Assembly (NCBI GenBank): GCA_018819105.1 | Contig: JAHJQV010000009.1 | Location: 1 to 38,305 of the forward strand | From: Gammaproteobacteria bacterium | Lineage (GTDB): Bacteria > Pseudomonadota > Gammaproteobacteria > Xanthomonadales > Wenzhouxiangellaceae | Reading direction: 5' to 3' | Length of the DNA stretch: 38,305 bases | Shown: positions 27,515-38,136 of the stretch, piece by piece | Layout: each line of letters opens with the position of its first letter | Position numbering within the stretch: the first letter of the stretch is position 1 | The notes under the pieces: model-generated | What the model was told of the DNA's origin: nothing | The model's database searches: none | Seen by the model: the letters and a program-made list of their open reading frames with translations, nothing else | Translations under genes and position numbers: made by a program

Positions 27515-30043
27515 CTACAAGGGCAGGAAGCGGTAGGTCACATTAAGCCCGACCGTGCGCGGTCGGTTGGTGGTGATGCGCGGAATGTCATCCTGGTTGT
27601 TGATGAACAATTGCGCCCGTTTGTCGAAGATGTTTTCGGCAAACAGTTCCACCCCCCAACTGCCTTTTTTCACGCCGATGGAACCGTTGAACAACTCGTA
27701 GCTCTCCTGTTTGCGGCGTTCTTCCGCCACCAGCGAGCTGAACGAGTTGCCGGTATAACTGCCTGCCACCTGCACATAGGCACCATCGGCAAACTGCCAG
27801 TCCGGCGCCCAGTCATAGCGTACTCTGGCGGTGGCCTGAAACTCGGGCACCAGCGGCAATCTGCTGCCGACCGGAGCCAGCTCGATCACCTGGGCGTCGA
27901 CCTGTGTCAACTCGGTGTCGTTGTAGGAAAAGGCTCCATAAACGGTAAGATTGCGGGTGGCGCGCCAGGTCAGGTCACCCTCGATGCCCATGATCTCGGA
28001 GTCGGCCGAGTTTTCGATAAAGGTGAGGATGGAGACGTTCTGCGGGTCAAAGCGTGACACCTGCATGTCATCCCATTGGATGAAGTAGGCGCTGCCATTG
28101 AAACGCACGGAGTTGTTGAAGAACATGCTCTTCCAGCCCAGTTCCCAGTTGGTCACGTCATCGGTATCAAAGGTGACCGATACGGTGGGGAAATCCGGGT
28201 TCACCGAGGGCAGCCCACCACCACGGTTGAAGCCGCCGGGACGGAAGCCTTCAGAATAGGTGAAGAAGAACAGGGCGTTGTCGGTGGGTGTCCAGGCCAG
28301 ATTGAATTTCGGCACGATGTCATCGATTTTCAGCTTGTCGGTACTGTGACCACCGGTCCGATCAAAGTCACGGCCGCCGGCACCGCCGCTGTCGCCCTCT
28401 ACCACAGAGTCGATCGAACCCTGAAAGATGCCATTGGCAAAGTTCGAGGAGCCCTCGAAGTTCTGCGCGATGTCGTAGTAGCGTGCGCCGACGGTCAGGG
28501 CCAGGGTTTCCGGGATCAGGTCGTAGGTGACCTCACCGAAAAAGGCGATCTGCTCTTCGGTGCGGGTGATGTCATTGAAAAAGGCAACACCGGCTGGTCT
28601 GGTTTCAGGGTTGATCGAGACTGCGGTCTCGATCGGCGCATTGGGGGCAAAGCCAAGATCCGGCGTGGCCTGATAGAAGAAATCGTCCTGGGTTTCCAGC
28701 TGGTAGTAATCATAGAAAACACCGGCCACGGCACGCAGGCGATTGTCGACCGGGGTGGCAAACCGCAGTTCGTGGGTGTGACGATCATGATTCTGGTCGC
28801 CTTTGAATCCCTTGGTGGGATCCAGGCATTCGCGGTTTTCGGTGATGAAACGCGGATCGATGTTGTAGTTGGTGATGTAGTCCGGGTTGTCGTAGGTGCA
28901 GGTGTAGTAGGCGATGAAGGCCCCGGCGTTGTTGTAGCCGGTGTAATCCACCGACTGCTGTACGTCACGATTCAGATAGGCACCGGTGTAGAGCATGTCG
29001 AGCATACCCAGACGGCCATCCAGGGTCCACGAGATCTGATTGAACTGATCGTCCAGTTCGTCCGGGAAGAAGCGGCTTACTTCCAGGTCGCCGACTTCCG
29101 GGTCGAAGTCGAAGACACCATCAGCACCGAGTTCCTGGAAGCTGTTTTGCACCAGCAGGTTCCAGTCCTCATTGAACTCGTAATAGGCACCGATGCGGAT
29201 GCCGCGGTAGAAGCTGTCGTTGAAGTTGTCTTCTGCCAGATCGGCATTGTTGGCGCTGCGGAACGTGGTGTCGTCGGGCAGGCTGCCGGCAACGGCAGAT
29301 TCGGGGTTGACGTCCGGATCCAGCGTGAACTCGCCCGGCACATTGTCGATGTAGCCGCCATAGTTGATGTTGTAGAAGGTCAGGCGGGTGGCAAGCTTGT
29401 CGGTGATGGGCAGGTTCAGATAGCCTTCCATCGAATTGTTGAACTCGCCGTTTTTGGTGAACGAGCCGCTGGCCTTGAAGCCGGCATCAAAGCCGTACAA
29501 GTCAGGCTTCTTGGTGATGTAGCGGATCGTACCAGCCTGCGAACTGGCTCCAAACAGGGTGCCCTGAGGTCCCGGCAATACCTCCACGCGCTCGAGATCG
29601 GTGGCATAGATATCCAGATTGCGACCAGGCGCGGTCACCGGCTGTTCATCCAGGTACAGCGCCACGTTGGGCTGGGTACCCTGGGCGCCAGACAGCAGAA
29701 CAGTGATCGGCTGCACCGCCATGCCGCGGATGTAGATGGTTTGCTGACCCGGGCCGCGACTCGCTGCGGTGACATTGGGCAGGAAGGTGCGCAGGTCATC
29801 AAAGTTGCCGATGTTCAATTCTTCGATCATGCGGTCATCCACGGCCTGAACCGTGACCGCCGCATCCTGGGCATCCAGCGCATTGGTCTTGGTGGCTGTG
29901 ACCACCAGTTTGGGAATGACTTTGCTGTCCTCCTCGTCCTGATTCTGTCCGGATTCACTGTCCTGTGCGTGCAGCAGTGTGGCGGTGGAAGATGCGGCCA
30001 GTGCACAAAATACGGCGTGACTCAGCTTGTTGCGAATGAACAT
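27515..30043 (-). CDS. TonB-dependent outer-membrane receptor 2
   Basis: The 842-residue protein has a signal peptide (cleavage near residue 26, LLHA-Q), then an acidic linker and the TonB box PKLVVTATKT (about 44-53). The plug follows with IYIRGMAVQP, DLERVEVLPGPQGTLFGASSQAGTIRYITKKP, then a 22-strand barrel ending in LNVTYRFLPL. Its plug wording is close to the Xanthomonadales/Sphingomonad receptors of broad specificity. The ligand is unknown. GAGGT lies 7 nt before the ATG. A long AT-rich leader and three small hairpins lie upstream, and the sulfotransferase gene follows on the same strand. Confidence 0.94.
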   Translation of the reverse strand: MFIRNKLSHAVFCALAASSTATLLHAQDSESGQNQDEEDSKVIPKLVVTATKTNALDAQDAAVTVQAVDDRMIEELNIGNFDDLRTFLPNVTAASRGPGQQTIYIRGMAVQPITVLLSGAQGTQPNVALYLDEQPVTAPGRNLDIYATDLERVEVLPGPQGTLFGASSQAGTIRYITKKPDLYGFDAGFKASGSFTKNGEFNNSMEGYLNLPITDKLATRLTFYNINYGGYIDNVPGEFTLDPDVNPESAVAGSLPDDTTFRSANNADLAEDNFNDSFYRGIRIGAYYEFNEDWNLLVQNSFQELGADGVFDFDPEVGDLEVSRFFPDELDDQFNQISWTLDGRLGMLDMLYTGAYLNRDVQQSVDYTGYNNAGAFIAYYTCTYDNPDYITNYNIDPRFITENRECLDPTKGFKGDQNHDRHTHELRFATPVDNRLRAVAGVFYDYYQLETQDDFFYQATPDLGFAPNAPIETAVSINPETRPAGVAFFNDITRTEEQIAFFGEVTYDLIPETLALTVGARYYDIAQNFEGSSNFANGIFQGSIDSVVEGDSGGAGGRDFDRTGGHSTDKLKIDDIVPKFNLAWTPTDNALFFFTYSEGFRPGGFNRGGGLPSVNPDFPTVSVTFDTDDVTNWELGWKSMFFNNSVRFNGSAYFIQWDDMQVSRFDPQNVSILTFIENSADSEIMGIEGDLTWRATRNLTVYGAFSYNDTELTQVDAQVIELAPVGSRLPLVPEFQATARVRYDWAPDWQFADGAYVQVAGSYTGNSFSSLVAEERRKQESYELFNGSIGVKKGSWGVELFAENIFDKRAQLFINNQDDIPRITTNRPRTVGLNVTYRFLPL

Positions 30044-31333: not shown

Positions 31334-32704
31334 TCAGTGTGCAGCTGCCATAATCGGCATACTGCACGCTGATCCTGCAGCAGTTTTGTCCAGAACGAAC
31401 ACATCGGCGCTGCGGCCGTGCTGATCAATCATGTTGGCTTGCAGACAGTCGCGGTCAACATCGATGATCAGCGAACCGGCGGTGGCGGTGGCCACGGCCA
31501 TGGCCGGGTGATCCAGCGGAGCCTGATCGATTTTGCTGGAACTGCCCAGTACCAGATACACCGTGCCACACTGGGTGTGACAGTCGCTGTCCTTGCGGTA
31601 AATGTCTCCCGGACCCTTGCCGCGCTGGCGCAGCATGGCTTCGGTCAGGCTGGGTGAGCTTCCATAATGTCCAGCCAGGAGATGGCTGCGTTCGTAGCTG
31701 TGGCTGTGCCCGGCCAGCACCAGGTCGACATCGGCCTGCTCCAGCAGCGGCACAATGTCTTCGCGCACCACGCGCTGACGCCAGTCGCTGCCGCTGGCGG
31801 CATCGGAATCGTTGCTGCCTTTGCTGTAGGGTGGATGGTGCAGCACGACAATGGTCCAGGGCAGCGTGTTGTGTTGCAGATCCCGCTGCAGCCAGTTCAG
31901 CATGTCCGGCTTGTCCAGACGCAACGAGGACTGGCTGTCAAGCATGACCACATGTACCGGGCCATAATCGAAGGCATAGTAACGCTGGCTGCCTGAGGCT
32001 ATCCCGCCGGATTCAGCATTGGCGGGAAAAGTGAACAGTTTGAAGAATGCCCGTCGCCGGGCATCGTGATTGCCATAGGCAGGCCAGAACGACGTTCCTG
32101 TCAACTCGCTGGCCAGTGGCTGCAACAGGGCCTCGCGGTATTCATTGAAGCGACCTGACGTGTAGGCATTGTCACCACTGGTAAGCAGCAGATCTGGCTG
32201 GCCTGTTGGCGATCGTGTCGCGTCTGGCACAACATGCGTGGACAAAACATGCGTGGACATCCATTGTCTGGCGGCAGCCTGAACCCGCTGCGCAATCTCA
32301 CCGTCTCGACCGGGATCGCCCAGCAGCCACAGCCGCACGCTGCTGTCAGCACCCGCCGGCGGGGTGCGAAACGCATGCCGCGTGGCATCGGTCGTCGCCG
32401 GCCATTGCAGTACATACTCATAGCGCGACTCCGCCTGCAGGGCGTCGAAGGTGATGCTGTGGCTGCGGCGGGTGCCGTCCAGACGCACGCTTTGCACCAC
32501 CTGTCCGGTGTCGGCGGCGAACACGGTGGCGGCAGTCGGACTGGCTGTGGGGGTGTGCCAGTAAACCCGCATGCTGGAGGCCTGGCCGTGTTGCAGCCAG
32601 GGGCCCGCTGCAGCGTCGATTCTGCTGTCCAGCATGATCTGCAGCTGTCTGCCCAGTACCGCCACGATGATAATGATGAATATTGTTTTCAGTAGCTTAC
32701 GCAT
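31334..32704 (-). CDS. Purple acid phosphatase-like metallophosphoesterase, membrane-anchored or secreted
   Basis: The 456-residue protein has an N-terminal hydrophobic segment (about residues 6-18) as signal or anchor. A fibronectin-III-like N-domain (about 35-115) and a calcineurin-type phosphatase domain follow. All five metal motifs are present: GDPG (Asp130), GDNAY (Asp178, Tyr181), GNHD (Asn212, His213), LHHPPYS (His290) and AGHSHSYERS (His333, His335). The fold would hydrolyse phosphate esters in the periplasm. A 14-bp direct repeat near 32230-32260 duplicates the peptide STHV. It is 58 bp downstream of the OxyR-like regulator on the same strand, so they may be cotranscribed. Substrate is unknown. 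Confidence 0.9.
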   Translation of the reverse strand: MRKLLKTIFIIIIVAVLGRQLQIMLDSRIDAAAGPWLQHGQASSMRVYWHTPTASPTAATVFAADTGQVVQSVRLDGTRRSHSITFDALQAESRYEYVLQWPATTDATRHAFRTPPAGADSSVRLWLLGDPGRDGEIAQRVQAAARQWMSTHVLSTHVVPDATRSPTGQPDLLLTSGDNAYTSGRFNEYREALLQPLASELTGTSFWPAYGNHDARRRAFFKLFTFPANAESGGIASGSQRYYAFDYGPVHVVMLDSQSSLRLDKPDMLNWLQRDLQHNTLPWTIVVLHHPPYSKGSNDSDAASGSDWRQRVVREDIVPLLEQADVDLVLAGHSHSYERSHLLAGHYGSSPSLTEAMLRQRGKGPGDIYRKDSDCHTQCGTVYLVLGSSSKIDQAPLDHPAMAVATATAGSLIIDVDRDCLQANMIDQHGRSADVFVLDKTAAGSACSMPIMAAAH

Positions 32705-32762: not shown

Positions 32763-33749
32763 TTATGTCGCGCCACCCGGATGCAGCTGACGCAGATCCG
32801 GGAACTGACTGATGTAGTCGCTGATCAGGCCAGCAATCAGATCCTGCAGCATGGTGTGCAAACCCTGCGATTGCTCAGTGCGGTCTGCGTCCGAGGCTGC
32901 AGAATTAATCACGGACTTGCGAAATCCGAGCCCGATCTGACGATAAGGTTCCTGCGCTGCCAGTCGCAGCATGCAGACATCGTTGCGACCATCAATCTCT
33001 GAATGCACATACAGTGCCGGCAGAAAGGCCATGCCCAGACCCATGCCGGCCATGTGCCGCAGCGTATCCAGGCTGGTGCCCTCGAAATCCCTGAGCAGCT
33101 CCGCCTCGTAGTCATCACACAGGGCCGCGACCTGCTCACGCAAATGAAACCCGCTTTCCATGGCCAGGATGCGTTGTCCTTTGAGCTGGTGTTTTTGCAC
33201 TTTCTCCTGTCCGGCAAGTGGATGATCCGGTGACACGGCCAGCAGCAGCGGTTCTTCGAACAGCAGTCTGGTCTGCAACTGGTGGCCATTGATTGGCAAC
33301 GGGGCGATAACCAGGTCCAGATCACCCTGGCTGAGCCTGGTTTCCAGTTGCGCCGGGGCATGCTCGCGCACGGAAAGTTTCAACTCCGGCCATTGACGAT
33401 GCAGACTGGCAATCAGACTGGGCAGCAGGTAAGGGCCCAGCGTCGGCGACACGCCGAGATGAAACAGACCGTTGCCCAGTTTGTCTCCGGCTCGCGTCAG
33501 ATCCTGAATGCGACGCACTTCGGCGATGGCATTGCGTGCATGCGCGAGCACATTGCGCCCAATCGGTGTCGGCTGCACCCGTTTGCCCAGCCGCTGCAGC
33601 AGCTTGCTGCCCAGTTCACGCTCCAGCTTGCCCAGCTGCATGCTCAGGGTGGGCTGGGTGACATGCAGTTTTTCTGCCGCTTTGCCGAAATGTCCGGTTT
33701 CCGCCACAGTAATAAGATAGGTGAGTTGACGCAGACTGGGCACGACCAT
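32763..33749 (-). CDS. OxyR-like LysR regulator lacking the peroxidatic cysteine
   Basis: The 328-residue protein aligns by eye with OxyR throughout: HTH LRQLTYLITVAETGHFGKAAEKLHVTQPTLS, then GVSPTLGPYLLPSLI, TSLDTLRHMAGMGLGMAFLPALYV and YRQIGLGFRK. In E. coli OxyR the sensing segment is GHCLRDQ...C with Cys199 and Cys208. Here it is GFHLREQVAALC, so Cys199 is replaced by His202 while Cys208 is kept as Cys211. It cannot use the standard disulfide switch. The start is ATG 33749 or, with AGGA better placed, GTG 33743. It is divergent from the export operon (97 bp between them) and is the likely regulator of it. I withhold the name oxyR because the key residue is missing. Confidence 0.88.
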   Translation of the reverse strand: MVVPSLRQLTYLITVAETGHFGKAAEKLHVTQPTLSMQLGKLERELGSKLLQRLGKRVQPTPIGRNVLAHARNAIAEVRRIQDLTRAGDKLGNGLFHLGVSPTLGPYLLPSLIASLHRQWPELKLSVREHAPAQLETRLSQGDLDLVIAPLPINGHQLQTRLLFEEPLLLAVSPDHPLAGQEKVQKHQLKGQRILAMESGFHLREQVAALCDDYEAELLRDFEGTSLDTLRHMAGMGLGMAFLPALYVHSEIDGRNDVCMLRLAAQEPYRQIGLGFRKSVINSAASDADRTEQSQGLHTMLQDLIAGLISDYISQFPDLRQLHPGGAT

Positions 33750-33846: not shown

Positions 33847-35514
33847 ATGAGTGCACACATAGTGATCAAAGGTCAGAACAAAATTACCATGGGTACGGCA
33901 TTCAGCCTGGTGTGGCTGATACTTGCCCCGGAGAAGCAGTACATGGTGCTGGCCATGGTCTATGGTGTGGCCATCAGTCTGCTCACGCTGGCGGTGCCGA
34001 TATCGGTGCAGATGCTTATCGATACGGTGGCCAACACGGCCATGATCCGGCCGGTGATTGTGCTCTCGGTGGTGCTGTTCATTCTGCTGTTGATCTCCGG
34101 GGTACTCACGGCGGCACGCATTCACGTCATGGAAATGTTCGGTCGCCGCATCTATGCGCGGCTGACCGGCGACATTGCACTGCAGTCTGTGCATGCCAAG
34201 GCGGCTTTCTTTGACGGCACCGATCGTGCCGATCTGATCAACCGCTATTTTGACATCATGACACTGCAGCGCCGCGTGCCGCTGGTGTTGAGTGGGGCGT
34301 TTGCGATCTTCCTGCAGTCCATCATCGGCTTCATTGTCGTGTCGCTCTACCATCCGGCGCTGCTGGCCTTCAACATTGCCCTGATTGTGCTGCTGACCCT
34401 GACGGCACTGCTCTGGGGGCCGCGCGCGATTCGCCGGGTGATTGAATTGAGCCATGCCAAATACAACACCGGTGCCTGTCTGCAAGGCATTGTTGCCGCT
34501 GGTGATTTTTTCAAATCCAGTCGGCATGTGGACTACGTCTACAATCGGGTCGAACAGCAGACCAGCAACTACATTGATGCCAGCATCCGCTTCTTCGGGC
34601 CCAGTTTTGGCCAATCGCTGGCCTTGCTGCTGCTGTATGCATTGAGCAGCGCCACCCTGCTCGGGCTGGGCGGTGTGCTGGTGATCGAAGGCCAGCTGAC
34701 GCTGGGGCAGCTGGTTGCCGCCGAGCTGATCATGTCAGCGATTTTTGTCGGCATTGCCCAGTTCACCTCATATCTGGAAGCCATTTATGACATTTTCGCT
34801 GCCTGCGAGGAGCTGTCTCTGGTGTATGGCATTCCGCACCAGCGTGCGCGGGAGCGCACTGAGCTGGATGACGGTGGCGAGGAACTGTGCTTTCATGATG
34901 TGACCATGCCCGGCACCAGCAAGCAGTTGAGCCTGCGACTGCCCGGTGGCAGCATTTCCAGTCTGGTGATGGAAAAATCGGCAGACCGTCGCCGCATCAT
35001 CAATTATCTGAAAGGCTATCAGCAGCCGGAGCAGGGACACATCACACTCGGCGGGCATGATCTGCGCGAGTTCGACAGCCATGATCTGCGCGACCGCATT
35101 GTTGTCATCGATCGTCAGAGCCTGATCCAGTGCCGCATCATAGATCTGATGAAGCTGGCTGCACCGGACGCGGATCGTGCCGATTTCTGGGACATGCTGC
35201 AGATTACCGGGGTCGACAAAGTGATCCGGCAGTTGCCTGACGGGCTCGACACCTGGTTGACCAGCCGCGGCAGACCGCTGTCGGGTTTTGACACCATGCG
35301 CCTGAAACTGACCGCCGCCATGCTTGCCGGTGCCAAGGTCATTGTGCTGCCGGAACTGGACGATCTGCTCTCCGATGAGGATTATGAAAACATCGTCAGC
35401 TATCTGCGCACACGCGGTGACATCAGTCTGGTGTGCCTGACCCAGAGACGCCGGAACATTGATTTCGACGAGATCATGGATGTCGATGCCTACAAATCCG
35501 AGGCCGCGCAGTGA
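33847..35514 (+). CDS. ABC exporter half-transporter with degenerate, probably non-hydrolysing NBD
   Basis: The 555-residue protein has a type I exporter membrane domain with six helices (about residues 32-60, 66-92, 142-165, 168-190, 255-280, 286-310). There is no N-terminal C39 peptidase. The C-terminal NBD (about 345-555) aligns end to end with T1SS-type NBDs, but the catalytic motifs are gone. The Walker A position reads MEKSADRRR (375-383), with Arg381 for Lys. The Q-loop Gln is Arg423, LSGGQ is LSGFD (478-482), Walker B DE is PE (Pro502-Glu503), and the H-loop His is Gln533. The frame is intact. AAGG precedes the ATG. The TGA stop overlaps the ATG of the HlyD gene. It may pair with another ATPase or work without ATP hydrolysis. 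Confidence 0.9.
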   Translation: MSAHIVIKGQNKITMGTAFSLVWLILAPEKQYMVLAMVYGVAISLLTLAVPISVQMLIDTVANTAMIRPVIVLSVVLFILLLISGVLTAARIHVMEMFGRRIYARLTGDIALQSVHAKAAFFDGTDRADLINRYFDIMTLQRRVPLVLSGAFAIFLQSIIGFIVVSLYHPALLAFNIALIVLLTLTALLWGPRAIRRVIELSHAKYNTGACLQGIVAAGDFFKSSRHVDYVYNRVEQQTSNYIDASIRFFGPSFGQSLALLLLYALSSATLLGLGGVLVIEGQLTLGQLVAAELIMSAIFVGIAQFTSYLEAIYDIFAACEELSLVYGIPHQRARERTELDDGGEELCFHDVTMPGTSKQLSLRLPGGSISSLVMEKSADRRRIINYLKGYQQPEQGHITLGGHDLREFDSHDLRDRIVVIDRQSLIQCRIIDLMKLAAPDADRADFWDMLQITGVDKVIRQLPDGLDTWLTSRGRPLSGFDTMRLKLTAAMLAGAKVIVLPELDDLLSDEDYENIVSYLRTRGDISLVCLTQRRRNIDFDEIMDVDAYKSEAAQ

Positions 35515-36599
35515 TGGTTGAGCAACGTCCCTTTGCGGCAGAAAAAGTTTCCCACTTCAACACCCTGCACAGCCTGCGTCTGCCACGCCCGCTGCGTGCA
35601 CTGGGCTGGATCATCGTGTTTGCCGTGAGCATCACGGCGCTGGTGCTGGTGTTCACCCCCTGGGTGCAGACCGTGCGCGGCGAGGGTGTGGTCACCACCC
35701 GCAATCCGCAGGATCGTGTGCAGCAGATCAATGCGCTGGTCTCCGGTCGCATTTCCGAATGGTTTGTCACCGATGGCAGCACGGTGCGGGCAGGCGACCC
35801 CATTGCCCGCATACTGGACAACGATCCGTTGTTGCTGGACCGATTGCGTTCCGAACGGGAGGCGGTGGCCAGACAGCTGGAAGCGATCGAGCAGGCGATT
35901 GCCACCGCCACACTGAATTATGAACGTCGCAAGCGACTGTTCGACCAGGGGCTGGGTTCGCGTCTGGATTTTGAAAACGCGCGACTGCAGGTGGAAAATT
36001 TGCGCGCGCGTAAAGCCTCGGTACAGGCTGATCTGAATACCGCAGAGATCAATCTGTCGCGGCAATCCACCCAGCTGGTCACCGCCCCACGTGACGGCAC
36101 CATCATCAGCGTCAATGCCGGTGATTCTTCAACCTTTGTCAATGTCGGCCAGGCACTGGCCACGTTCATGCCGGCCGATGTGAATCTCATTGTGGAGCTG
36201 AAAGTGCCGGGACGGGATGTGCCACTGATCGAGGTCGGGCGGAAAGTGCGACTGCAATTCGAAGGCTGGCCGGCAGTGCAGTTCAGCGGTTGGCCCTCCA
36301 TCGCGGTGGGCACATTCGGCGGCGTGGTGACCTTTGTCGACCCGGTGGCGGGCCTGGACGGTCTGTTCCGGGTGATGGTCAGCGAGGACCCCATGGATGA
36401 GCCCTGGCCGGACAAGCGATTCACCATGTTCGGTGCCCGCGCGCATGGCTGGGTGCTGCTGGAGACGGTGCCGGCCGGGTATGAGCTGTGGCGACGCCTG
36501 AACACCTTCCCGCCACAGTTTCCCCAGAATAATGGCCAGAGCAATGGCCAGAGCAATGGCCAGAGCAGCGGGCAGAATGGCAGCCAGAGCAATGGCTGA
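35514..36599 (+). CDS. HlyD/MacA-type membrane fusion (adaptor) protein
   Basis: The protein is 361 residues from the ATG at 35514, which overlaps the ABC gene stop (TGATG). A short cytoplasmic N-terminus and one membrane helix (about 30-49) come first. A lipoyl half (about 68-100, VSGRISEWFVTDGSTVRAGDPIARI), a coiled-coil hairpin (about 105-188) and the second lipoyl half (APRDGTIISV, 191-200) follow, then a beta-barrel. The hairpin is short, more like MacA/RND adaptors than E. coli HlyD. It should bridge the ABC subunit and the TolC-like channel. The last ~22 residues are an unusual NGQS-rich tail encoded by 12-bp tandem repeats. Confidence 0.9.
   Translation: MVEQRPFAAEKVSHFNTLHSLRLPRPLRALGWIIVFAVSITALVLVFTPWVQTVRGEGVVTTRNPQDRVQQINALVSGRISEWFVTDGSTVRAGDPIARILDNDPLLLDRLRSEREAVARQLEAIEQAIATATLNYERRKRLFDQGLGSRLDFENARLQVENLRARKASVQADLNTAEINLSRQSTQLVTAPRDGTIISVNAGDSSTFVNVGQALATFMPADVNLIVELKVPGRDVPLIEVGRKVRLQFEGWPAVQFSGWPSIAVGTFGGVVTFVDPVAGLDGLFRVMVSEDPMDEPWPDKRFTMFGARAHGWVLLETVPAGYELWRRLNTFPPQFPQNNGQSNGQSNGQSSGQNGSQSNG
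36531..36566 (+). repeat. 12-bp tandem repeats encoding the Asn-Gly-Gln-Ser tail of the adaptor
   Basis: Three perfect copies of AATGGCCAGAGC are followed by degenerate copies up to 36598. They encode repeated NGQS in the adaptor frame. In the + strand frame of the next gene they read as repeated MARA and supply spurious upstream start codons for it. Confidence 0.9.
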
Positions 36600-36621
36600 A
36601 GCCGGCGCAAGGGTGGTCGCA

Positions 36622-38136
36622 ATGCGAGTGAGCCGGCACTGGCTGCAGTGCATCGGCTGTGGCCTGCTGTGTCTGCTGTGGTGTGTCACAGGCACCGCAG
36701 CGGCACAGTCGGACTCGGATCTGGCAGCGCAGCCACAGACACCACTGCAGGCCGATGAGCTGTTGCAACGCTCGGCCGAGCACGTGCCGCAGATTCTGGC
36801 TGCCAGCGCCGATCGGCAGGCACGGCTGGGGCTGATACAGCAGGCCGATGGTGCCTTTGACACCACCGTCAGCGCCGACAGCTACAGTCGCCTCAGCGGG
36901 TTTTATGATGGCCAGCTGGCCACGGCAAAAATCAGTCAGCCGCTGGCCGAGTACAGTGCCGAGGTGTATGGATCCTACCGCATTTCGCGCGGCAGCTTTC
37001 CAGTCTACGAAGACATCAACTTCACCAATCTGGGCGGCGAACTGAAGCTGGGGGTGGCCTTGTCGCTGTTGCGTGACCGCGATCTGGATCGCCGACGTTT
37101 TCAGCGCAATGATGCCCGCCTGGCACTGGACGTTGCCGACTATGCGTTGCAGGCGGTGTTCCTGGATGTGCAGCGCAATGCCCTCAAGGCTTACAACGAG
37201 TGGCAGGCATTCGGTTTGCAGCGGCAGGTTTTCGACAATCTGCTGCAACTGGCATTCGAGCGGGAAAAAGCTTTGCGCATCCGCATTGATGAAGGCGATG
37301 CCGCTGAAATTCTGCTCACAGAAAATCGCCAGAACATCATTCGCCGCCAGTCGTTGCTGGTGGAAGCCGAGCGCGATCTGCAGCGGGCGGCGATTGCACT
37401 GTCGTACTATTATCGCGATCAGAACGGTCAGCCGCTGCGGCCGCCACCGCAGCGACTGCCACCAGCTGCCAGCTATTTCACCCTGGAGCAGGATCTGCCG
37501 GTGCTTGACGATGCACTGCAGCAGGCGCTGCAACAGCGGCCCGAGCCGGCGCGCCTGAACACCGAAATCCAGCGTGCCAGACAGCGCATACTGCTGGCCG
37601 AAAACGACATCAAGCCGAATCTGGATTTACGCTATGAGCTGGCCCGCGATCTGGGTGATCCCGGCCAGGGCGGTTTGTCGCGTGAAGGCGTGGACAACAT
37701 TGTATCGCTGAATTTCAGCGTCCCCCTGCAGCGCAATGCCGCCACCGGCCGTCGGGTGCAGGCGCAGGCAGAAATGGAGGCGCTGGCGCACCGGCGACAG
37801 AACATCGAAGACTCCATCGCGGTGGAGCTTGAGCGGGTATTTCAGACCCTGCAGGCAGCGGCCGAGTTGCGTCAGCTGGCGGAATTGGAGATCGAACAGG
37901 CTATCGCCATGCGCGACGCGGAGCAGGAACTGTTTCGCAGTGGCGCAAGCAATTTCTTTCTCGTCAACCAGCGTGAAATCGTTGTGGCCGATGCCCGCAA
38001 CCGGCGCATTGCTGCGGTATTGCAATATCGTCAGGCATTGGCCGATCTGGCCGTGATCACGGCTGACTTTGACAGTCTGCAGATCGAACTGCTCAGCGCT
38101 GCAGAGCGCAACACTTTGCCTGACCTCGGGCGTTAG
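36622..38136 (+). CDS. TolC-family outer-membrane efflux/secretion channel
   Basis: From the ATG at 36622 this is 504 residues, with AAGGG 8 nt upstream and a signal peptide (MRVSRHWLQCIGCGLLCLLW..., cleavage near TAAAQ, residue 27). In-frame ATGs from 36532 on lie in the adaptor repeat and would add an implausible MARA-rich leader; 36592 is possible. Two outer-membrane-efflux repeats, each with long coiled helices and beta-strands (about residues 45-270 and 290-490), fit a trimeric TolC channel. It is the third gene of the ABC-adaptor-channel operon. The stop codon TAG is the first three bases of the right inverted-repeat copy. Confidence 0.9.
   Translation: MRVSRHWLQCIGCGLLCLLWCVTGTAAAQSDSDLAAQPQTPLQADELLQRSAEHVPQILAASADRQARLGLIQQADGAFDTTVSADSYSRLSGFYDGQLATAKISQPLAEYSAEVYGSYRISRGSFPVYEDINFTNLGGELKLGVALSLLRDRDLDRRRFQRNDARLALDVADYALQAVFLDVQRNALKAYNEWQAFGLQRQVFDNLLQLAFEREKALRIRIDEGDAAEILLTENRQNIIRRQSLLVEAERDLQRAAIALSYYYRDQNGQPLRPPPQRLPPAASYFTLEQDLPVLDDALQQALQQRPEPARLNTEIQRARQRILLAENDIKPNLDLRYELARDLGDPGQGGLSREGVDNIVSLNFSVPLQRNAATGRRVQAQAEMEALAHRRQNIEDSIAVELERVFQTLQAAAELRQLAELEIEQAIAMRDAEQELFRSGASNFFLVNQREIVVADARNRRIAAVLQYRQALADLAVITADFDSLQIELLSAAERNTLPDLGR

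Follow-up and report, generated by a model that had tools for sequence, protein, structure and literature searches.

A family of pseudo-ABC exporters that appears to have lost ATP hydrolysis while keeping its adaptor and TolC partners

In the canonical sandwich of nucleotide-binding domains (NBDs) of ATP-binding cassette (ABC) transporters, the Walker A motif of one chain faces the signature motif of the other chain across ATP. In degenerate-site exporters (e.g., TM287/288 and TmrAB), a single ATP site of the pair is degenerate, and the examples given in a review excerpt still bind ATP (PMC7756269). LmrA-MD, from which the NBD has been removed, is presented as a secondary transporter coupled to protons, with E314 in transmembrane helix 6 (TM6) required for its pH-gradient-driven activity (PMC2704374), and pH-gradient-driven efflux is reported for the equally NBD-less MsbA-MD (PMC4979069), as far as excerpts of these two articles go. 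Here we describe a gene of the gammaproteobacterial contig JAHJQV010000009.1 (hereafter the window, i.e., the entire contig of 38,305 bases, whose parent genome is 98.7% complete). Its product, termed pseudo-ABC exporter (pABC), has the fold of such exporters in the predicted model, while its NBD has lost nearly all catalytic residues. The initial annotation of this DNA had proposed selection for a non-hydrolysing function, a proposal now supported by the family-wide loss of the motifs, the conservation of the replacement residues and the low ratios of nonsynonymous to synonymous substitution rates (dN/dS) of the NBD in relatives.

The pABC gene is a single open reading frame (ORF) from an ATG at 33847 to a stop codon at 35514 (555 codons plus stop) with zero internal stops, in agreement with the earlier description of a gene free of frameshift or stop over 33847-35514. 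The Pfam model ABC_membrane (PF00664) matched residues 34-300 with 61.8 bits (cut-off 28), and ABC_tran matched the NBD with 20.3 bits, below its cut-off of 25. An AlphaFold2 model built from 62 rows reached a mean predicted local distance difference test (pLDDT) of 89.1 and a predicted TM-score (pTM) of 0.83, with pLDDT values of 84-97 in the NBD blocks. When compared with the PDB (Foldseek, VIA-align), this model was placed over its full length with PCAT1, HlyB and TmrAB, and the match with exporters extends up to about residue 550. The best match was TmrAB chain B (6rai; Z 27.6, root-mean-square deviation 2.6 Å over 530 residues), followed by HlyB (8dck; Z 26.8), many exporters lying within 1-2 Z. 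Thus, a six-helix transmembrane domain (TMD) and, in the predicted model, the NBD fold of type IV (ABCB/type I) exporters are present in pABC, and the Walker A, Q-loop, LSGGQ, Walker B Asp and H-loop are absent.

In NCBIfam, the models that scored best for pABC, far under their cut-offs, were those of ABC subunits for type I secretion and peptide export, with TIGR01846 at the top (112.4 bits against 725.55). This model matched 16 of the 16 family members scanned, and TIGR03375 was best for the divergent members L148 and L149. No family-specific model matched pABC in Pfam, NCBIfam, PHROGs or PADLOC (the last with zero matches); in PHROGs, the matches were the general ABC transporter family phrog_2392 (E-value 1.1e-46) and families of unknown function. 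pABC probably descends from a type I secretion or peptide-export ABC transporter (HlyB/LssB-like) whose NBD has given up hydrolysis. Note that the divergent members L148 (7586-8050) and L139 (upstream of the match) carry N-terminal extensions of about 150 residues; that of L148 had no Pfam match, and its position makes it a candidate remnant of a C39-like domain.

The motif positions of the window were read by alignment to competent exporters, which bore out the substitutions first listed (Arg381, Arg423, LSGFD, Pro502 and Gln533; Table 1). The wider statement that every NBD catalytic motif is lost holds for Walker A, Q-loop, LSGGQ, Walker B Asp and H-loop, but the Walker B Glu position is still Glu, E503 being the sole surviving catalytic residue in the window pABC. 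Two censuses were made, one of motifs over 110 aligned rows (108 distinct) and one of replacement residues over 62 diverse rows, hereafter the family rows. In the former, LSGGQ was found in no row, the Walker A Lys in two (with a true P-loop in L040 alone), the Q-loop Gln, the Walker B Asp and the H-loop His in one each, and the Walker B Glu in six, the window among them. In the latter, the Walker A Lys column (381) held Gln in 40, Glu in 12 and Asp in 6 rows, and the P-loop Ser column (382) held Arg in 47 and Lys in 8. The Q-loop Gln column (423, adjoined by Q424 in the window) was Arg and the signature Gln column (482) was Glu in 55 rows each; G475, P477 and D506 were present in 62/62 rows, R415 was kept in 61/62, and Asn was the commonest residue at the H-loop position (33/62). 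The same losses therefore recur in other species, in nearly all of the 108 distinct rows, and what stands in place of the lost residues is itself conserved.

Arg or Lys at 382 co-occurs with Asp or Glu at 482 in 51/62 rows. In three sphingomonad rows (L076, L099 and L124), residue 482 is Lys and residue 381 is Glu, a possible charge swap that probably goes back to one event. Because Walker A faces the opposite signature across ATP, an Arg-Glu contact in place of the nucleotide would be a natural structural hypothesis. None of the family members examined retains every motif, the nearest to doing so being L140/L148, which keep the P-loop and the Walker B Asp-Glu (ABC_tran, 74.6 bits) without canonical signature, Q-loop or H-loop. 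In addition, L040/L054 keep the P-loop and the Walker B Asp, and L139 keeps the P-loop only, so that the family, as read from its sequences, offers a graded series of NBD loss. We strongly infer from these alignments that ATP hydrolysis has been lost in the pABC family. The alternative that the NBD still binds or hydrolyses nucleotide through unconventional residues could draw on the predicted retention of the fold, on E503 in the window, on the near-invariant R415 and on the motifs retained in L140/L148, L040/L054 and L139. We regard it as very improbable given 110 rows without P-loop (save L040), without signature and with almost no Q-loop or H-loop residue.

The family is patchily distributed. 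At an E-value of at most 1e-60, pABC relatives were found in 4 of 61 related genomes, and a four-row profile (E-value at most 1e-90) found pABC in 20/398 genomes of the order and 11/398 of the phylum, the window's own being counted each time. In a scan of named genomes, at least 594 stretches were matched, and at least 521 of them encode some relative at a loose tblastn limit; the named-genome loci analysed below are the best 80 of these at least 521 relatives. Named carriers include Erythrobacter, Novosphingobium, Sphingomonas, Parvularcula, Kordiimonas, Alteromonas, Halieaceae, Woeseiaceae and Methylobacterium, and the 108 distinct sequences spread across Gamma- and Alphaproteobacteria, as far as they were named or inferred. 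A metagenome bin titled Klebsiella pneumoniae (L135) also carries a member, a label that is probably wrong. Another member lies on plasmid pNL2 of the laboratory strain Novosphingobium aromaticivorans DSM 12444 (SARO_RS19820-19810). Among 72,556 plasmid records, 18 encode a relative at an E-value of at most 1e-20, namely 15 from sphingomonad-type genera and three from Bacteroidota; the Bacteroidota pABC is known from these three plasmid records, and its motifs were read in two (L138 and L139). None of 55 pattern matches in viral contigs encodes a relative. In a quick TMD tree, the 42 family rows lie on one side of five competent rows (support 90, not starred, with long branches), which would separate them from competent exporters without proving it. 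In this tree, the copy of genus g42 groups with alphaproteobacterial copies (98, starred), which suggests that g42 acquired its pABC by horizontal transfer, and the window falls in no starred set. The placement of coded genomes among named ones points to Gammaproteobacteria as the class of the window. No description of a motif-less pABC family was found in the open-licence literature searched.

Selection on the pseudo-NBD was estimated from close pairs only (dN < 0.1; 159 pairs of 50 sequences). The NBD dN/dS had a median of 0.093 (range 0.016-0.247), far from 1, against a median of 0.088 for the TMD, and the NBD value exceeded that of the TMD in 106/159 pairs. A looser limit (dN < 0.15; 174 pairs) gave an NBD median of 0.101 and a maximum of 0.331. 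Unrestricted estimates (1170 pairs; TMD median 0.4, NBD median 0.589, 804 NBD values above 0.5) were set aside because of distant pairs and synonymous saturation. In close relatives, purifying selection acts on the pseudo-NBD. These figures come from relatives, the lowest dS between the window pABC and any of them being about 1.06. At the family level, neither close relatives with intact motifs nor dN/dS values near 1, the signs that had been named for a decaying gene, were observed. Decay or a sequencing error could be argued from the window NBD, whose agreement with the conserved columns ranks second from the bottom among the 62 rows, and from the sole same-genus genome (G001, 88% complete), which has no copy at an E-value of at most 1e-60. 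This explanation is rejected at the family level by the motif census, the conserved replacements and dN/dS. It is also unlikely for the window lineage, which retains R382, R423, P477, G475, D506, E293 and K205 within an intact overlapping operon. Altogether, we consider decay or error extremely improbable, nearly all 108 distinct rows having the same losses and the relatives being under purifying selection.

Where the constraint now lies was examined in the same six genomes (the window, G693 and four of genus g42) for pABC and for a competent exporter of the L002 type. Between these three groups, pABC identity was 0.46-0.54 in the TMD and 0.27-0.37 in the NBD, whereas that of the competent exporter was 0.40-0.46 in the TMD and 0.56-0.64 in the NBD. 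On these sequence comparisons, the constraint on pABC is shown to have moved from the NBD to the TMD between groups, the reverse of the competent exporter. As far as prediction shows, the pseudo-NBD is kept folded, yet the most demanding part of pABC is now the TMD.

The analysis of the pABC neighbourhood covered 98 loci, of which one is the window, 17 come from coded genomes and 80 from named ones, at least one genome being present twice (L048/L072). A gene for a periplasmic adaptor follows pABC in 97 of them, the contig ending in the remaining one, and a search with the TolC of the window found TolC in 92. Among the six loci without a TolC match, L054 and L134 have room for the gene and L066, L076, L099 and L130 are short stretches; in L054, a 594-aa ORF follows. 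The distant members L138, L139, L148, L149 and L054 also adjoin an adaptor gene. In the window, the start codon of the adaptor gene (GTG 35511 or ATG 35514) shares bases with the pABC stop codon (TGA, 35512-35514), and translational coupling of these two genes is therefore likely. The coupling to all partners suggested at first is less sure for TolC, because its likely start falls after the adaptor stop, and the upstream LysR gene is divergent. A single N-terminal helix, a hairpin some 75 residues long and a barrel make up the adaptor model (pLDDT 80.0, pTM 0.52), which most closely resembles the MacA and AcrA/MexA types (best Foldseek match MacA 3fpp, E-value 2.8e-16, TM-score 0.46/0.58). The best NCBIfam match of the adaptor was a model for adaptors of the resistance-nodulation-division (RND) type (93.2 bits, cut-off 94.9), and the HlyD model TIGR01843 gave 61.6 against 208.65.

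The TMD, first described as normal, indeed matches PF00664 and shows six long helices, but it carries charged residues that are absent from all nine aligned competent exporters (L161 and L164, in which no frame with LSGGQ/E was found, were left out of this comparison). E293 in TM6 is present in 62/62 family rows, K205 in 62/62, H169 in 61/62 and Asp or Glu at 315 in 60/62, and each of E293, H169, K205 and D315 occurs in 0/9 competent exporters. E293 is also found in the divergent Bacteroidota members L138 and L139 and in L140/L148, L040/L054 and L141/L149, so that this TM6 Glu occurs together with partly intact NBDs as well as with motif-less ones. Its presence in partly intact members (L140/L148, L040/L054, L141/L149 and L139) suggests that the Glu was acquired before ATPase activity was lost.

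Since the relatives lost the same residues nearly always beside the same two partners, a working pump on another energy source is suggested. We tentatively favour pABC as the homodimeric inner-membrane core of a tripartite efflux system, with an ATP-free NBD scaffold and with transport perhaps driven by an ion gradient, a reading for and against which the evidence is close to balanced; the homodimer and the energy source are hypotheses. Its ion-gradient-driven form is favoured because of the conserved TM6 Glu and the precedents of engineered LmrA and MsbA. Under this reading, pABC, a MacA/HlyD-like adaptor and TolC would assemble as the tripartite system, and the pseudo-NBDs of the pABC homodimer would form the ATP-free scaffold. 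Arg or Lys at the former P-loop, opposite the Glu at the former signature, would perhaps hold the pseudo-NBDs together where ATP sat. The TMDs, with the conserved E293, H169, K205 and D315, would alternate between states on an ion gradient as the engineered NBD-less LmrA and MsbA do, and the substrate would perhaps be a small molecule, given the MacA/AcrA-like adaptor. The full mechanism, in which the pseudo-NBD dimer is locked by the Arg-Glu pair and export through adaptor and TolC is proton-driven via the invariant TM6 glutamate, is more speculative, and we would rather expect some part of it to be wrong.

A non-energised role would also agree with the loss of the energy-coupling residues and with the retention of the adaptor and TolC: pABC would then be a gated or facilitative conduit (CFTR-like or a downhill exporter), or a regulatory or structural subunit tying adaptor and TolC to another transporter. 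However, the TMD is more conserved between groups than that of the competent exporter in the same genomes, and its invariant charged residues suggest more than a scaffold. In addition, clustering of the neighbouring genes over 96 loci showed, beyond the operon, no gene cluster in more than 38 loci, save one of 83 loci made of opposite-strand frames over the operon, which we take for an antisense reading; most of the clusters are unannotated. We therefore consider a non-energised role unlikely.

Another possibility is that pABC pairs with a competent half-transporter encoded elsewhere, which would hydrolyse ATP for both, as an extreme case of the degenerate-site exporters TM287/288 and TmrAB. 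Such exporters are common according to the consulted part of the review (PMC7756269), the fold comparison ranks TmrAB chain B first (with the other exporters within 1-2 Z), and the window genome holds four other, competent exporter relatives. Moreover, genus g42 has a competent L002-type half-transporter two genes upstream in all four loci examined, out of 15 g42 genomes found; in these loci (L042-L045), the L002-type exporter, a LysR gene and the pABC operon all run in one direction. However, with four competent exporters as queries (E-value < 1e-12), a competent ABC half-transporter was found in only 5/98 fetched stretches, the four of g42 and one at 9.6 kb, and neither at the window nor in 93/98 loci within these stretches, 69 of which extend for 8 kb or more in each direction. 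The g42 neighbour type is non-specific: at an E-value of at most 1e-120, it occurs in 18 of 19 chosen genomes with pABC (not in G404) and in 17 of 21 chosen genomes without it. A PF00664 census (E-value at most 1e-5, typed by blast to the four exporters of the window genome) of three genomes with pABC (G000, which is the window genome, G404 and G693) found no competent type common to all three; this census is incomplete, two or more known relatives being absent from it (L005 of G000 and the pABC of G693 itself among them). A conserved competent partner was thus found neither in the 40-genome L002-type search nor in the three-genome census nor in the 98 neighbourhoods. Finally, the degenerate sites named in the review excerpt keep ATP binding (PMC7756269), whereas pABC has no P-loop. 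This evidence lowers the heterodimer reading, which we hold as doubtful; of the options offered at first (a structural protein, a heterodimer partner, a transporter powered otherwise), the last is favoured, as yet unproven.

Several observations weigh against the favoured ion-gradient-driven homodimer. The window pABC stands at a dS of about 1.06 or more from every relative, and the shift of constraint is seen between groups only, the TMD and NBD differing little within g42 (0.89-0.94 and 0.85-0.91, respectively). The window NBD matches the conserved columns in 23/35 cases, against 89/102 for the TMD; because of this low agreement, the constraint on the window's own NBD may be weaker. The competent neighbour in g42 and the incompleteness of the exporter census count on the same side. 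In addition, the likeness of E293 to LmrA E314 is that of a shared TM6 location alone; in the model, TM6 runs from residue 286 to 327, and E293 comes about two helical turns after its start. The 382/482 Arg-Glu pair is absent in 11/62 rows and thus is not obligatory, and the ion-gradient step is a hypothesis built by analogy.

Table 1. Features of the pABC locus in the window.
Feature	Position	Strand	Basis
Pseudo-ABC exporter (pABC), 555 aa	33847..35514	+	ORF; Pfam; AlphaFold2 model; PDB fold matches
pABC TMD, residues 15-327, six long helices	33889..34827	+	model secondary structure; PF00664
E293 in TM6 (GQLVAAELI)	34723..34725	+	alignment
pABC pseudo-NBD, residues 345-545	34879..35481	+	alignment; model
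R381-R382 at Walker A Lys-Ser position	34987..34992	+	alignment
R423 at Q-loop Gln position	35113..35115	+	alignment
P477 and LSGFD (478-482) replacing LSGGQ; D482 where the family has mostly Glu	35275..35292	+	alignment
P502-E503 at Walker B Asp-Glu	35350..35355	+	alignment
D506, invariant	35362..35364	+	alignment
Q533 at H-loop His position	35443..35445	+	alignment
Membrane fusion / periplasmic adaptor protein, predicted N-terminal helix 26-48	35511..36599	+	Pfam HlyD_3/HlyD_D23; model; Foldseek best MacA
TolC-type outer membrane factor; probable start at 36622, as judged from the signal peptide	36532..38136	+	Pfam OEP, 90.3 bits
Divergent LysR-family regulator, OxyR-like	32763..33749	-	Pfam/NCBIfam

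Outside the operon, a LysR-family gene adjoins pABC in 27/98 loci, the window included; some of these neighbours are 39-45% identical to the LysR of the window and others 25-29%, and in L044 the LysR match is split over two frames. The LysR of the window is most like OxyR (209.4 bits, cut-off 329); the position that we take to be the peroxidatic Cys of OxyR seems not to be Cys, and the regulator may sense something else. An FAD/NAD-dependent oxidoreductase lies upstream on the opposite strand (e.g., L046, 10743-11885) in 22 loci, mostly of the Erythrobacter type, and in the distant L105 (23/98 in all), where it forms a fusion with AIRS domains, as in SelD. Both genes were considered as family-wide operon partners and dismissed, being recurrent but not across the family. 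Other observations concern single loci. A gene for an ArsP_1-type permease directly follows TolC in L011 (14340-16172), and a similar-looking ORF follows TolC in the other g21 genome (L041, 12407-14275). In the window, the DNA at 36520-36596 encodes a low-complexity NGQS-type repeat at the C-terminus of the adaptor and, read in a different frame, the beginning of the long TolC ORF. Further upstream are a metallophosphoesterase (31334-32704, minus strand) with a weak match to a purple acid phosphatase N-domain and a TonB-dependent receptor (27515-30043, minus strand) matching a siderophore model with 132 bits, below the cut-off of 223.5.

Proton-coupled transport by the TMDs of ABC exporters has so far been shown with engineered truncations of LmrA and MsbA, according to excerpts of the articles concerned (PMC2704374, PMC4979069). 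A natural family in which selection maintains TMD, adaptor and TolC, but which has no recognisable ATPase site, makes such transport directly testable, and its graded NBD loss provides a chance to watch a motor domain turn into a scaffold. Several family members are annotated as 'ABC transporter ATP-binding protein', a label that may cover proteins hydrolysing nothing. If the favoured reading is true, exporters with an ABC fold have turned into secondary transporters throughout a natural and widespread family.

Compared with known systems, pABC shares with the type I secretion systems of the HlyB/LssB type its best NCBIfam match (TIGR01846), the gene order ABC-adaptor-TolC, all three genes being found together, and the fold match to HlyB. 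It differs from them in scoring far below the TIGR01846 cut-off, in lacking the catalytic motifs and any Pfam match to a peptidase-type domain, and in its adaptor, whose model is nearest to the MacA/AcrA types and stays under the TIGR01843 cut-off. With MacAB-TolC, it shares the tripartite layout and an adaptor model closest to MacA (3fpp). MacB has another type of TMD and is an active ATPase, unlike pABC. The degenerate-site exporters TM287/288 and TmrAB have the same type IV exporter fold and non-consensus NBD residues. In pABC, by contrast, a homodimer would have the motifs at neither of its sites, no competent partner was found nearby in 93/98 loci, and the P-loop is absent from the window and from all but one of the 110 rows; pABC is not explained by the degenerate-site exporters compared here. 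As exporter TMDs without working NBDs, LmrA-MD and MsbA-MD are similar to pABC, and the TM6 glutamate matters for the pH-gradient-driven transport of LmrA-MD in the excerpt considered (PMC2704374). However, these are laboratory truncations, whereas pABC is natural and has a full-length motif-less NBD, its ion coupling being proposed by analogy. Judged by its sequence, pABC is a variant of the tripartite ABC exporter kind that stands outside the ATP-driven family, the catalytic features tested being absent.

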